Part shown: positions 156-6,112 of the stretch, in pieces
Layout: every line of letters begins with the position of its first letter
Position numbering within the stretch: position 1 is the stretch's first letter
Assembly (NCBI GenBank): GCA_003171255.1
Contig: PMYK01000055.1
Coordinates: forward strand, 1-33,041
DNA length: 33,041 nt
From: Chloroflexota bacterium
GTDB lineage: Bacteria; Chloroflexota; Limnocylindria; Limnocylindrales; CSP1-4
Reading direction: 5' to 3'
Translations under genes and position numbers: made by a program
The notes under the pieces: model-generated
Told to the model about the DNA's origin: nothing
Databases searched by the model: none
Seen by the model: the letters and a program-made list of their open reading frames with translations, nothing else

Positions 156-1121
156 TCAGTCCGGCGGCAGACCCGAACCTGCGCCGGCGGTCTCGATCGG
201 CGTGGCGAGACCTATTCCGATGAACACGTCTTGGTTGGTTGGATTGACCAGGGCTTCGACGATTCCGACGACCTGGCCATTGCGATTGAGAAGCGGTCCG
301 CCCGAGCTGCCGGGGTTGACCGCGGCGTCAAACTGGATCAAGCCCTGGAGGTTGGGGCCGTCGTTGGGAAGCTGGAGTGAGCGGTTGAGCCCGGACACGA
401 CGCCGGCCGTCAGCGAGCCAGTCATCCCGAACGGGTAGCCGACGATGTAGGCGTCGCTGCCGACCTGCATGCTCCTCGAGCTGCCGAGAACCGCGGGCAC
501 GAGCTTGGCGGGCGGATTAGTTGCCGTCAGGATGGCGATGTCCCTGGCCGGGTCGGTCGACTTGACCTGCGCCGAGGACGCGTTGCCATCGGCGAAGACG
601 ACCTGGATGGCCGTGGCGTTCAGGATCACGTGCAGGCAGGTCATGATGTCGCCATTGGCGTTGATGATCACGCCGCTGCCGGTGGAGCCGTTGGCGACGG
701 GTGTGCCAAGGCTCGGGCTGGCGGTTGCGCTGGGCTGGGCGCTCGGTGTCGGCCCGGCGCTCGGCCCGGTGCTCGGTGTCGGCCCGGTTTCCATCCCAGG
801 CAGGGGCGGGAACGTCGGGAGGGCCGTGGCAAGCACGATGACCTGGACGACGGAGGGTGCGATGGCCCGATAGACCGCCTGAGCGGCCGGCGGAGCGGGC
901 GTCTGCGAAGCGAGGGTCTTGGTGATGCTCTGGTTGATGTCCTGCTGGGTGAGCGGCCTGGCTCCAGGGTTCATCGCGCCGTAGATCACCACGGCGATCA
1001 GGGCCGCTGCGATGCCCGACGCGAACGGCACGGTCTTCCGGACCCGGGTCCGCAGGCGGGCGAGTGGCCGCGACCAGCGATGGCTCGGCGGCAGAGTCGG
1101 CTCGTCCTGCGGGGAATCCAT
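156..1121 (-). CDS. Membrane-anchored trypsin-like serine protease (S1C/HtrA-like, no PDZ)
   Basis: This 321-residue protein has a basic cytoplasmic N-terminus (1-30), one membrane segment (about 33-52) and an extracytoplasmic chymotrypsin-fold domain. The catalytic triad is visible as His164 in TCLHVI, Asp194 in ARDIAIL and Ser273 in NPGSSGGPL. Family members degrade or process damaged or specific envelope proteins. Two points are unusual. The protein stops soon after the protease domain, so it has no PDZ domain to regulate it. About 40 residues rich in Pro, Ser, Thr and Gly (105-145) interrupt the beginning of the protease fold. The ATG at 1121 has only a weak ribosome-binding site, but it leaves a sensible cytoplasmic tail. 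The downstream neighbour on the strand is the MoxR-like start. The substrate is unknown. Confidence 0.85.
   Translation of the reverse strand: MDSPQDEPTLPPSHRWSRPLARLRTRVRKTVPFASGIAAALIAVVIYGAMNPGARPLTQQDINQSITKTLASQTPAPPAAQAVYRAIAPSVVQVIVLATALPTFPPLPGMETGPTPSTGPSAGPTPSAQPSATASPSLGTPVANGSTGSGVIINANGDIMTCLHVILNATAIQVVFADGNASSAQVKSTDPARDIAILTATNPPAKLVPAVLGSSRSMQVGSDAYIVGYPFGMTGSLTAGVVSGLNRSLQLPNDGPNLQGLIQFDAAVNPGSSGGPLLNRNGQVVGIVEALVNPTNQDVFIGIGLATPIETAGAGSGLPPD
741..787. repeat. 17-bp direct repeat in the protease linker
   Basis: GCTCGGTGTCGGCCCGG occurs at 741-757 and again at 771-787, a 30-bp period, with a related GCTCGGCCCGG between them. It encodes the Pro/Ser/Thr/Gly linker of the protease. 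It probably arose by slippage, and linker length is likely variable among strains. Confidence 0.7.
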
Positions 1122-1436
1122 GGGGCAGACCCAACTCCAGTCCGTGTCGCCGACCGGGTCGAGACGCCTCGGTTACGGCCTGGCGGATGATCCTTCAGAT
1201 AGACAGTGTGGGCTAGATTCTGCAGCCTGCCTGAAAGCGGGCGAAAAGGGCTCGACAGGATGCGTTAGTCGAGACGCGCTCTGTTGCGCAGTTGCCGCCG
1301 GGACGGCCATCATTGGTGCTGCTCTCGAACCTGCCCGGCGCCGGCTGTAGCGGCGCCGCCCGGTTTGGGCCGACGGCCGATCGTCGACGCGATTGGCCTC
1401 GCGCTGCCACGGCAGCCGCCACTGAAAGGGATGACG
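1122..1436. other. Divergent intergenic region with long gnd leader and inverted repeats
   Basis: No gene is supported here. The ORF track extends the gnd frame up to 1284, but that extension has no ribosome-binding site and no family similarity. A TAGATT that could act as a -10 box lies at 1214-1219 without a good -35. If it is used, gnd would have a leader of roughly 200 nt. The region holds CTCGAC/GTCGAG arms around 1250-1275. It also holds a perfect 8-bp inverted repeat, CGGCGCCG at 1336-1343 and 1351-1358 with a 7-nt loop. No known riboswitch was recognised. Confidence 0.35.
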
Positions 1437-2456
<1,020 letters not shown>

Positions 2457-2528: not shown

Positions 2529-2621
2529 AGCCGCCCACAAAGAGGCACACCCGCCGCGAGGCGGGGCCGCAAAGCAACGGGACTCGCATGGGAGTCGGCC
2601 GGGCTGCCGAACGGAGAGGCT
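2529..2621 (+). promoter_or_regulatory. Cyclic-di-GMP-I (GEMM-I) riboswitch-like aptamer, apparently orphan
   Basis: The plus strand shows the GEMM-I layout. A GGCACACC segment (consensus GGCAAACC) is followed by stem P2, CCCGCC/GGCGGG, closed by a GCGA tetraloop (2550-2565). Then come GCAAAGC (2569-2575), stem P3 GACTC/GAGTC (2581-2596) and the hallmark GCCGGGCTGCCGAA. Distal P1 pairing AGCC/GGCT brackets the element at 2529-2532 and 2618-2621. In the family, c-di-GMP binding switches the downstream gene. Two deviations stand out: CACACC instead of CAAACC, and GGGCCGCAAAGC where GGGACGCAAAGC is usual. The second change appears to replace the adenine that stacks between the ligand guanines (A47 in Vc2), so ligand binding may be altered or lost. 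Only a 29-codon ORF follows on this strand. Confidence 0.72.
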
Positions 2622-2711
2622 ATGCCGTTGTCGACTGGCGACGGGTCGAAAATGGATCCACGCCAGGCTACCTGGGCCCGTGCCGTTCGAACTCCCGCTG
2701 CTCCTCGATAG
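2622..2711 (+). CDS. Possible 29-aa leader-type ORF behind the riboswitch
   Basis: An ATG immediately follows the aptamer (CGGAGAGGCT then ATG) and opens a 29-codon frame, MPLSTGDGSKMDPRQ..., ending at 2711. GGAG lies 5 nt before the ATG, inside the closing stem of the aptamer, so ligand binding could mask it. The peptide resembles nothing I know. Its 3' end overlaps the 3' end of the DksA-like gene on the other strand. It may be a genuine short peptide, the stub of a lost target gene, or chance. Confidence 0.22.
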   Translation: MPLSTGDGSKMDPRQATWARAVRTPAAPR

Positions 2712-3024
2712 CCCGCTCGGCAAGGGGTTCCGCCTCGAGTCTCTCGTCCGGGATCGCCATCCCGCTCTCGACCGATATGCCGTACGTGCCTCGTGAGATA
2801 CGCTCTTCGGCCCGCCCGACGGCGTCCAACTGCTCGCGGAGGTCGGCCGTGATGGCGACGGCGACCGACTCAGCTTCGAGTCCGCTGCCGGCGTCTTCGT
2901 ACTCTCCCGTCTGCTGGCGCTGAAGCGGCCCGTCGGAAAGGACCTGACCGCTGATCTCGGCGAGCATCGACTCAACTCGCGCCCGTTCCCCGGCGACCAG
3001 CTCGCGAGCCCGTGATTCATTCAC
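2668..3024 (-). CDS. DksA/TraR-type protein lacking all zinc-finger cysteines
   Basis: This 118-residue cytoplasmic protein has a long charged helical N-terminal part (1-80, coiled-coil-like). It ends with the family signature RGTYGISVESGMAIPDERL followed by EAEPLAERAIEEQ. In canonical DksA/TraR proteins the corresponding segment is YGxCxxCGxxI...RLxAxPxxxxCxxCQ. Here the four cysteines are replaced by Ser, Ser, Ala and Glu, so no zinc can be bound, although the IPxERLEAxP core is kept. Family members bind the RNA polymerase secondary channel and modulate initiation. Cysteine-poor members exist, so function may persist. The start is GTG 3024, because GGAGGTGATC precedes it with a 5-nt gap. 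The GTG at 3030 in the ORF track overlaps that site. It lies convergent to the GEMM-like element. Confidence 0.7.
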   Translation of the reverse strand: MNESRARELVAGERARVESMLAEISGQVLSDGPLQRQQTGEYEDAGSGLEAESVAVAITADLREQLDAVGRAEERISRGTYGISVESGMAIPDERLEAEPLAERAIEEQREFERHGPR

Positions 3025-3363
3025 GATCACCTCCGGGCCGGATCGAACCGGCCGGCTGGAAGAACCGAACGACGTCCAGTCACGACATCATCCGATGGTC
3101 AGCGCCGACGCGCGGCGTCCTGTCGCCTTTGGTGCGCAAATCGGTCATCGCGGTGCTCCTCCAGCCATGCTCGGGAGATGGTCATGAATCCTCGAGTCGG
3201 ACTTGAGTCTGGCCACGATCCCCGCCGGCCGCGAGGATGAGAACACGCCCGTTCCGGGCCGGCACAACTTTCAGGCCGCGGTAGGTTCGCAATGCCGTCC
3301 GGTCTGTCGGCCGTTGCGGTTGGCGGCCCGGCGCGCATGTTTCGCTGCGGGGAATCGTGCGAG
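3025..3363. other. 339-bp spacer, no supported gene
   Basis: Short ORFs occur on both strands, but none has a convincing ribosome-binding site or family match. A minus-strand frame contains NGRVLILAAGG, which faintly echoes the Kelch DGRVLIAGG pattern seen elsewhere in the window, but it has no further repeats. No strong terminator follows the GH87-like gene. Confidence 0.3.
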
Positions 3364-5316
3364 CTATCGGTCTTCGCCAGGGCCAGTCTTCAAGGGCCAC
3401 CAGGCCGATGGCACCGGGGCCGGCACGACAGTCGGACGATCTTCACAAATCGAGTCGTCCGTCCAGCCGCCGCCGTTGCCGCCCAGATCCAGGACGCCGA
3501 AGCACGCACTTGGATCGCCCGACTTGAACGGGTCACAGATGTTGATGCCCGCGGCGCCGACATTGCGAGCAACGACGTTCTGAAATGTAGCGGACCCCCC
3601 GACCCGGGCACTCAACACGGATGTGCCGGTGCCGTCCACCTTGATGTCCTTGAAGTGGACGTTGACAATCGAGTACCGGCCCCTGTCCGGCGGGTCGACC
3701 ACGAACATGATCGCGTTGTACGTGTTGTCCAGGTAATGGTCGCCGGTGACCTCGATGACGGCTTCCATCGACCCCTCCTGCGCGTAGAACCAGATCGCCC
3801 CGAGCCCGAAGCCCCATCTCATCTCGAAGGTGCCGGCGCGGACTGTGGTGTTGTTCGTGAAAGCCAGATGCCCGGCGAACGGCGTGCTGCGGAAGCGCTG
3901 ACCCGCGTGCAGGCCGCTGCCCTCGCGGATTGGGTCGGCGACGACGTTGTTCGAAACCTGGTTGTCGCGGCCGCCGTAGATGGCGATGCAGTTGGCCAGC
4001 ACCGGCGTCTGGATGGAGTTGTGGTCGAAGACGTTGCCGGAATTCTCGACGGCAAGAGGGTTGTGCGGATTGGCGCTGCGCGACCACATGGCCATGCCGT
4101 CGTCGCCGTTATTGCGGAAGAAGCAGTTGGTCACACGCGAGTTGGTGACGCCGGAGCAGAAGTTGAGCCCGTCGGCCATCGTGTCCACGACGATCAGGTT
4201 GGCCACGGTGAGGTTGTTCATCGGTCCGTCGAGCCACAGGCCGACTTTTGTGTGGTGGATGTACAGGCCGTCGATCGTGGAATCGCTGAGCGCGCCTCCA
4301 ACGCCGTTGACCTGGTCGCGGTCGATTCGCTCGCGAACGTCGCCCTCGATCGCGAAGCCGGACATGTGTACGTTGGCGCTGCCGCCGTCTCGGGCGTATT
4401 TGCCATAGAAGCCGACACCGGTGTGGGTCGACCCGTCCCGCAGCGGCGAGGCGAGAGCCACGCAATTACCGCGAATGATGGTCCACCAGCTGCCCGCGCC
4501 CTGGATCGTGACGTCGTCGACGATGATGTGGCGGTTGACCTGGAAGGTGCCGGTGGGTATGAAGACGGTCGCGTGGCGGGCCTTCGCTGTGGCGATCGCG
4601 GCGTCGAACGCGTCCGAAGATTCGGCTGCGCCCGTCGGGTCGGCGCCAAAGTCGACCACGGAGAGCGAGCCGTGCGGCGCCTTCGTCGGCGAACCGACCA
4701 GCTCGAAGTCCATCAGGTCGATCGCGTACCACGACGCATCTGTTACCTCGGGCACCGTGAGTCGGATCGTGTCGCCGGCGCGGTACGTTTGGCCGAGCAT
4801 GACGCGCAACTCGTCGTAGAAGTGGTTCGGACGGAATGGCTTCGCGACGGGGTCCGGCTCGGGCTTCCAGGGACCGGGGTCCGGCTCGACTCCCGGGTCG
4901 TTGGAGAACGGGTACACGCCGTAGAACCAGGAGTACTTTGACGTCAGCCTCAGCGTCAACGTTCTGGCCTCGACGCCGGCGAGAACGGGTCCCTCCCGCC
5001 GCGTGGCCGTCAGCTCGATCGGGGCGTCGATCCCACCCCCGGTCGGTGAGTCCGGGATGCTGTATCGAACCGTGATGGCGTTGGCCTCGCGAGTGAGCGT
5101 GAACTCGACGTATTGGCCCGCCCTGGTGAGCATCACCGCCATCCGGCCGGAGGCCTCGGCTGCGAGCGTGTATGCGGAGGTGTCCGGGCCGATGATCTCG
5201 CCGGTGGTGGCGGCGTTCTCGGCCTCCTGCTCGACGAAGTCCACCCTGGCGCCCCGACCGGTGGTCAGAGCCGGGTCAAGCGCTGCGACCGTCTCACGCG
5301 GCGCGGGAGCGGCCAC
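3364..5316 (-). CDS. GH87-like (alpha-1,3-glucanase/mycodextranase type) CBM35 + beta-helix protein
   Basis: This 650-residue protein has two parts. Residues ~25-205 form a carbohydrate-binding beta-sandwich of CBM35/CBM6 style (VEQEAEN start, KYSWFYGVYPFSNDPG, HFYDELRVML, WYAIDLMDFE). From ~215 (SLSVVDFGADPTG) a right-handed parallel beta-helix of the pectate-lyase superfamily runs to about 620. ADG (381-383) and NNGDDGMAMWS (402-412) resemble the aspartate-bearing motifs of GH87 enzymes, which cleave alpha-1,3-glucosidic bonds in nigeran and fungal wall glucan. The start is a GTG 10 nt after the IclR stop, so translation is probably coupled. No signal peptide is encoded, and extending the frame upstream gives no hydrophobic segment. 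That is odd for an enzyme of this class. The alternative is another beta-helix glycoside hydrolase or lyase acting on imported oligosaccharide. Confidence 0.65.
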   Translation of the reverse strand: MAAPAPRETVAALDPALTTGRGARVDFVEQEAENAATTGEIIGPDTSAYTLAAEASGRMAVMLTRAGQYVEFTLTREANAITVRYSIPDSPTGGGIDAPIELTATRREGPVLAGVEARTLTLRLTSKYSWFYGVYPFSNDPGVEPDPGPWKPEPDPVAKPFRPNHFYDELRVMLGQTYRAGDTIRLTVPEVTDASWYAIDLMDFELVGSPTKAPHGSLSVVDFGADPTGAAESSDAFDAAIATAKARHATVFIPTGTFQVNRHIIVDDVTIQGAGSWWTIIRGNCVALASPLRDGSTHTGVGFYGKYARDGGSANVHMSGFAIEGDVRERIDRDQVNGVGGALSDSTIDGLYIHHTKVGLWLDGPMNNLTVANLIVVDTMADGLNFCSGVTNSRVTNCFFRNNGDDGMAMWSRSANPHNPLAVENSGNVFDHNSIQTPVLANCIAIYGGRDNQVSNNVVADPIREGSGLHAGQRFRSTPFAGHLAFTNNTTVRAGTFEMRWGFGLGAIWFYAQEGSMEAVIEVTGDHYLDNTYNAIMFVVDPPDRGRYSIVNVHFKDIKVDGTGTSVLSARVGGSATFQNVVARNVGAAGINICDPFKSGDPSACFGVLDLGGNGGGWTDDSICEDRPTVVPAPVPSAWWPLKTGPGEDR

Positions 5317-5326
5317 GACGCGCCGG

Positions 5327-6112
5327 CTACCGCCCGTCCGGGGCGTGAGGGGTTCCGCCCAGCTGAGTCGACAGGCTCTCGGTGGTGGCCACCAGCGTCG
5401 GCCGCAGCGAGTCCAGGTATTCGACCGTGAAGCGGTTATCCGGGCCGGAGATGCTGATGCCCATCCGGACCCTTGTATCTCGTTCGAAGATGGGAGCGGC
5501 GATGCACCGCATGTGGTCGGACAGCTCGTGGTCGTCGATGGCGTAGCCGCGCAGGCCGATGACCTCGAGCTCGGCTCTGAGAGTCAGTGGATCGACGATC
5601 GTGCCGCTCGCATGTCGCTCGAGCGGTCCGCCCAGGACCTCATCGATGAACCCCGGCGCCTGCCAGGCGAGGACGGCCTTGCCGATAGAGGTGCAGTGGA
5701 GCGGGCTCCGGTCGCCGACGCTGAAGTCGACGCCCACGAGCTGGCTGCCCTCGACCCGCTGGATCACTACCGTCTCGTGACCGTCCAGGATGGAAACGTC
5801 GATGGATTCGCCGGTATCGGCGGAGAGCTTCTCCAGGGCCACTCGAGTGAGCCGCGAGACCTCGTTGTTCGCCAGCAGGTTGCGACTGAGCGAGACGACG
5901 TGATAGCTCAGGCCGTAACGGCGCGAGGCTTCGTCCTGGAACACGTAGCCGGCCACGACGAGCGTGGCGAGCATGCGGTGGGTGGCGCTCTTGTCCAGGC
6001 CGGCACGCGTCGCGATCTCTCCAAGAGTGGACAGGCTGGGTTTGGCGGCCACGGCCTCGACAACGCGGAGAGCCTTGAGGGCGGTAGTGCTGACGGCGGC
6101 ATTCTCGCTCAT
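5327..6112 (-). CDS. IclR-family transcriptional regulator
   Basis: A 261-residue DNA-binding protein. The N-terminal winged helix-turn-helix (about 8-65) includes LGEIATRAGLDKSATHRMLATLVVAGYV. The effector domain (about 80-250) carries SVGDRSPLHCTSIGKAVLAW and RGYAIDDHELSDHMRCIAAPIF, both typical of IclR proteins. The start is placed at ATG 6112 (MSENAAVSTTALKALRVVEAV), which gives the usual family length. The ORF-track start at 6244 adds 44 residues with no similarity and would cover the promoter region. IclR proteins usually sense small acids or aromatics and control an adjacent catabolic operon. This gene is divergent from the aldehyde dehydrogenase/ABC operon and is followed at 10 nt by the GH87-like gene. 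It is therefore the likely regulator of both arms and probably autoregulated through the palindrome at 6119. Confidence 0.9.
   Translation of the reverse strand: MSENAAVSTTALKALRVVEAVAAKPSLSTLGEIATRAGLDKSATHRMLATLVVAGYVFQDEASRRYGLSYHVVSLSRNLLANNEVSRLTRVALEKLSADTGESIDVSILDGHETVVIQRVEGSQLVGVDFSVGDRSPLHCTSIGKAVLAWQAPGFIDEVLGGPLERHASGTIVDPLTLRAELEVIGLRGYAIDDHELSDHMRCIAAPIFERDTRVRMGISISGPDNRFTVEYLDSLRPTLVATTESLSTQLGGTPHAPDGR

Follow-up and report, generated by a model that had tools for sequence, protein, structure and literature searches.

Working riboswitches have a target gene downstream on the same strand, a feature of the working switch and not of the aptamer fold itself. In the Vc2 c-di-GMP-I riboswitch, G20, A47 and C92 contact the ligand (PMC4744006, PMC3764141), and A47 stacks between both guanines of c-di-GMP (PMC3764141). 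The conserved nucleotides also include A48, A49, C44 and G83, the last two forming an interhelical pair (PMC3764141). Binding of cGAMP goes with an A at position 20, and a G20A mutant of GEMM-I binds cGAMP (PMC6274999).

Here we describe a member of this family that faces no intact target. With a probability of about 0.8, it is a genuine c-di-GMP-I riboswitch, recently orphaned, that formerly exerted translational control over a secreted, C39-peptidase-like protein. A deletion of ~1.2 kb would have taken nearly the whole target gene together with the hairpin after it.

The aptamer and its ligand pocket

Covariance searches identify a single structured RNA in the window, the whole 33,041-nt stretch of DNA analysed. 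Of 4227 Rfam families, only c-di-GMP-I (RF01051) matched, at full model length and well above its gathering cut-off (54.6 bits against 35; E = 3.4e-8). This is also the sole RF01051 match in the genome to which the window belongs, G000, a 2.56-Mb, 55-contig assembly that is 91% complete (E = 6.1e-10). The first-pass annotation had proposed a GEMM-I element to be checked with a covariance model, and the score bears it out. All the elements it named are present, and its two odd bases, C2567 preceding CGCAAAG and C2548 within CACACC, read as it described. So do the 29-codon ORF and the oppositely oriented gene that follow. Its span of 2529-2621 holds the aptamer and is slightly wider, taking in a ribosome-binding site. 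A 201-nt segment centred on this region showed no folding signal over shuffles (z -0.12), a sigma-70 promoter scan found none, and a terminator scan returned one weak minus-strand site and nothing else.

Table 1. Positions of the riboswitch, its ligand-pocket bases and the neighbouring genes in the window; the last row gives related loci elsewhere in the family
Feature	Position	Strand	Basis
6-phosphogluconate dehydrogenase-family gene (6PGD), upstream, left synteny anchor	1437..2456	+	NCBIfam NF007161, 435 bits; G011 copy 93.5% aa identical
c-di-GMP-I (GEMM-I) aptamer	2534..2611	+	RF01051 54.6 bits; RF03167 55.4 bits, under its cut-off of 59
G, equivalent of Vc2 G20, ligand contact	2544	+	RF01051 alignment
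GCGA (GNRA) tetraloop of P2	2556..2559	+	sequence, RF01051 alignment
C, equivalent of C44, interhelical pair with G83 (2598)	2568	+	RF01051 alignment
AAA, equivalents of A47-A49	2571..2573	+	RF01051 alignment
C, equivalent of Vc2 C92, ligand contact	2607	+	RF01051 alignment
Shine-Dalgarno-like GGAGAGG of the lost gene, right after the aptamer	2613..2619	+	sequence; same position in G011, G020, G003
5' stump of the lost secreted-protein gene, MPLSTGDG... (G011: MPLSTDGG...)	2622..2662	+	alignment to G011
29-codon ORF, the stump continued over the junction into DksA-like antisense	2622..2711	+	ORF list, sequence
Deletion junction	2645..2666		blastn and global alignment; homology to G011 back at 2663-2666
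DksA/YteA-like gene, convergent with the riboswitch, right synteny anchor	2668..3030	-	TIGR02890 E 1.2e-11, under curated cut-off; 98% identical in G011
Micropeptide and riboswitch loci (Limnocylindrales family)	L180-L184, L186-L190, L192, L193, L195, L196		

The ligand pocket is intact. By the RF01051 alignment, the ligand contacts and the other conserved nucleotides named above are all retained (G2544, A2571, C2607, A2572, A2573, C2568 and G2598), as is G45; the altered pocket and changed ligand suggested earlier find no support here. The two odd bases occupy positions 24 (C2548) and 43 (C2567). Both lie in the P2 internal loop, and neither is on the published list of conserved nucleotides (PMC3764141). 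We scanned aptamers from relatives at these positions, reading L006, L014, L188 and L013 by eye and leaving out L016, L017 and L021. The window, L007, L008, L013, L015 and L018 all have C at 24 together with a base other than A at 43; an A at 24 comes almost always with an A at 43. On this pattern, the two departures seem to form a single linked variant that is tolerated.

A switch of ligand, to cGAMP or another dinucleotide, is on this evidence extremely unlikely. It could appeal to the departures at 24 and 43 and to a broken pair at the base of P3 (A2576.G2602), but the contacts G20, A47 and C92 are all canonical. The same two departures occur in L007, L008 and L013 ahead of intact secreted-protein genes, and L015 combines C at 24 with T at 43. 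The P3 pair is equally broken (C.A) in the closest relative, G011, which retains its gene. The mark of cGAMP-type aptamers, an A at position 20, is absent, G standing at 2544. We rejected an altered ligand on the strength of the intact contacts and of departures common to other family aptamers; the ligand is presumably c-di-GMP.

Membership of the c-di-GMP-I-GGC family (RF03167) was also rejected: the score stays below the cut-off (55.4 against 59 bits), and at the A47 position, where its consensus (CGCGAA) has G, the window and the parsed relatives carry A. RF03167 outscores or rivals RF01051 on A47-bearing aptamers, among them L002, L005, L007 and L009, so the Rfam label alone is no proof of a GGC variant. 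Consensus departures in an orphan riboswitch should not be taken for a new ligand.

The missing target gene

Comparison with a syntenic relative reveals what the riboswitch once controlled. The closest relative found, G011 (PLNK01000071.1, Chloroflexi bacterium fen_1071), is a metagenome-assembled genome from a fen; the other relatives compared are labelled Candidatus Limnocylindrales. Its gene order runs 6PGD, riboswitch, a 408-residue signal-peptide gene, then the DksA-like and glucanase genes on the minus strand. In blastn and global alignments the window matches this layout on both sides and lacks only the 408-residue gene with the hairpin 3' of it. What remains of the lost gene is its ribosome-binding site and start (ATGCCGTTGTCGAC); the retained sequence, GGAGAGGCTATGCCGTTGTCGAC, is the ribosome-binding site and start of the G011 gene. 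The stump comprises the first ~8-13 codons: confident alignment stops at ~2644, placing the left breakpoint at 2645-2662, and homology resumes ~25-30 nt past the stop codon of the G011 gene, beyond the hairpin, which is likewise lost. A same-strand target thus lies downstream of the aptamer in G011 and survives in the window only as a stump, and the earlier description of the element as an orphan or relic holds.

Insertion of the gene in G011 was rejected as the alternative to deletion: the window retains the gene's ribosome-binding site and first codons, and G003 and G020 carry the same gene start behind the riboswitch. In these two genomes the riboswitch and a gene beginning MPL(S/T) lie elsewhere. 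A target moved elsewhere within G000 was looked for and not found; the assembly has no close copy of the lost protein, just a paralogue of 29% identity. Synteny can explain an apparently orphan riboswitch, with the missing target found in a relative and the deletion mapped.

The mode of control can be read from the spacing in relatives. Within the genus, the target's start codon lies 11-12 nt past the aptamer with the ribosome-binding site between them. This leaves no room for a terminator, so control of the lost gene was most likely translational, as we infer from sequence.

Most genomes of the genus encode several members of the secreted family to which the lost protein belongs, and one Cys and one His are invariant among its members. 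Similarity to Pfam C39-like peptidases is weak (3 of 16 family members, best E 0.0021), and we call the family C39-peptidase-like tentatively. Single-sequence structure prediction of the lost protein reached a mean pLDDT of 31.6, and a profile search of the PDB returned nothing convincing.

Two further observations concern the flanking DNA. A second content difference lies nearby (window 1121-1431 against L023 6271-9186): in G011 a sigma factor and a SurA/rotamase-like gene separate the gene for a trypsin-like protease from 6PGD, and both are absent there in the window. The DksA/YteA-like protein reads GTYGISVESGMAI at a site where one would look for a zinc-finger CxxC, and its cysteines are apparently missing.

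Timing, present role and competing explanations

Divergence from G011 changes abruptly at the junction. At fourfold sites it is 62/194 (32%) in 6PGD, to the left, and 1/68 in the DksA-like gene and 17/355 (4.8%) in the glucanase gene, to the right; identity steps from ~89% to 98%. This fall from 32% to 1.5-5% indicates that the right-hand DNA was recently exchanged between lineages, in either direction. The left edge of the recombination tract would be the junction itself or lie within the deleted stretch. The low-divergence tract spans window 2663-5798 (L023 11632-14761), its right end inside an IclR gene. Genome-wide, G000 and G011 form a mosaic of tracts ~80-95% identical.

The deletion would have come with this exchange or before it. 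The aptamer differs from that of G011 at 8 of 78 positions, well under the neutral 32%. If the deletion accompanied the recent exchange, the aptamer has not had long enough to decay; its intact pocket is then no evidence of current function, and its low divergence would reflect constraint while the gene was present. The same 8/78 would be compatible with continued function as well, but the time it records may lie mostly before the deletion. Loss of c-di-GMP signalling was rejected as a cause, since G000 still has 11 matches to GGDEF and at least 4 to EAL; with these, the ligand is probably made. The stranded element is now likeliest functionless, and is probably a commonplace relic of evolution instead of a sensor of some new molecule.

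An assembly artefact, in which two strains or distant pieces were misjoined and the target is actually present, is unlikely. The metagenomic origin of the assembly and the step in identity at the junction would suit it, yet the pieces concerned also lie side by side in G011, with matching order and orientation. At the junction only a few bases agree with either parent sequence, fewer than an assembler would need for an overlap. Identity to G011 right of the junction is 95-97% instead of 100%, and tracts 92-95% identical to G011 occur elsewhere in the genome too. In an assembly of 55 contigs and 91% completeness, the absence may still stem from a faulty join, or the gene may have a copy in the part that is missing. 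The first-pass suggestion of a tiny peptide, with the 29-codon ORF as a real c-di-GMP-controlled product, is exceedingly improbable: it has a good ribosome-binding site, and conserved micropeptides do follow related riboswitches in the family, but the ORF opens with codons matching the N-terminus of the 408-residue secreted protein and is a truncated 5' part of that longer gene. The second half reads the DksA-like gene in antisense, and the ORF has neither the hydrophobic stretch of the micropeptides nor their AGxRW ending.

The other role suggested at first pass was antisense control, in which, on a change in c-di-GMP, plus-strand transcription would run through 2612-3030 and interfere with the convergent DksA-like gene. 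The geometry allows this: the aptamer points toward the 3' end of that gene, 56 nt away, the intergenic hairpin of G011 is lost in the window, and in a published survey no riboswitch family was as enriched in antisense orientation as that of c-di-GMP (PMC9943018). We nevertheless regard it as very unlikely. The arrangement occurs in one genome only and in no relative, arose as a by-product of the deletion, and comes with no visible expression platform or new conserved element; the same survey regards cases beside pseudogenes as mostly fortuitous (PMC9943018). That loss of the target and hairpin turned a translational switch into a source of c-di-GMP-responsive antisense RNA against the DksA-like gene is, if anything, a shade more doubtful; if true, a new regulatory link would have arisen from gene loss.

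Micropeptides and comparison with known systems

Elsewhere in the family, c-di-GMP-I riboswitches do stand before small peptides. The L006, L014 and L015 riboswitches are followed by short ORFs encoding a conserved, hydrophobic peptide of ~30 residues ending in AGxRW. This micropeptide occurs in 20 of the 61 family genomes searched, and a c-di-GMP-I aptamer lies close by on the same strand at 14 of the 20 micropeptide loci fetched (Table 1). The peptides, of ~28-35 residues (for example MARTLKAQAFRVLLVLSALASSALVLEAGQRWK), sit directly behind the riboswitches, often as tandem pairs; several loci have two in tandem. Four examples searched against Pfam matched no family. We read them as conserved membrane peptides preceded by many of the family's c-di-GMP-I riboswitches. 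At L193 (G076), three c-di-GMP-I aptamers fall within ~1.3 kb alongside several micropeptide ORFs. L002 (G023:C22) has the top-scoring RF01051 aptamer of the set (75 bits), with nothing behind it but a 36-residue signal-like ORF and a tRNA on the minus strand; it is possibly another stranded or micropeptide-controlling riboswitch. These membrane micropeptides are a more interesting lead than the stranded switch.

Among described systems, the element is closest to RF01051 c-di-GMP-I riboswitches, sharing a full-length match above the cut-off, the ligand contacts, the GNRA tetraloop and the C44-G83 pair. It differs from them in lacking an intact target, in A24C and A43C in the P2 internal loop, and in one broken P3 pair. 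Its overall sequence also resembles c-di-GMP-I-GGC (RF03167), whose cut-off the relatives with intact genes exceed and the window does not; where that model has G, the window and its relatives have A47. With the cGAMP-sensing GEMM-I riboswitches of Geobacter it shares the fold, whereas position 20, where an A goes with cGAMP binding, is G here. Like the surveyed riboswitches that face pseudogenes or antisense genes (PMC9943018), it confronts an opposed gene after gene loss or rearrangement; unlike them, its lost target and the deletion that removed it have been identified from a syntenic relative.
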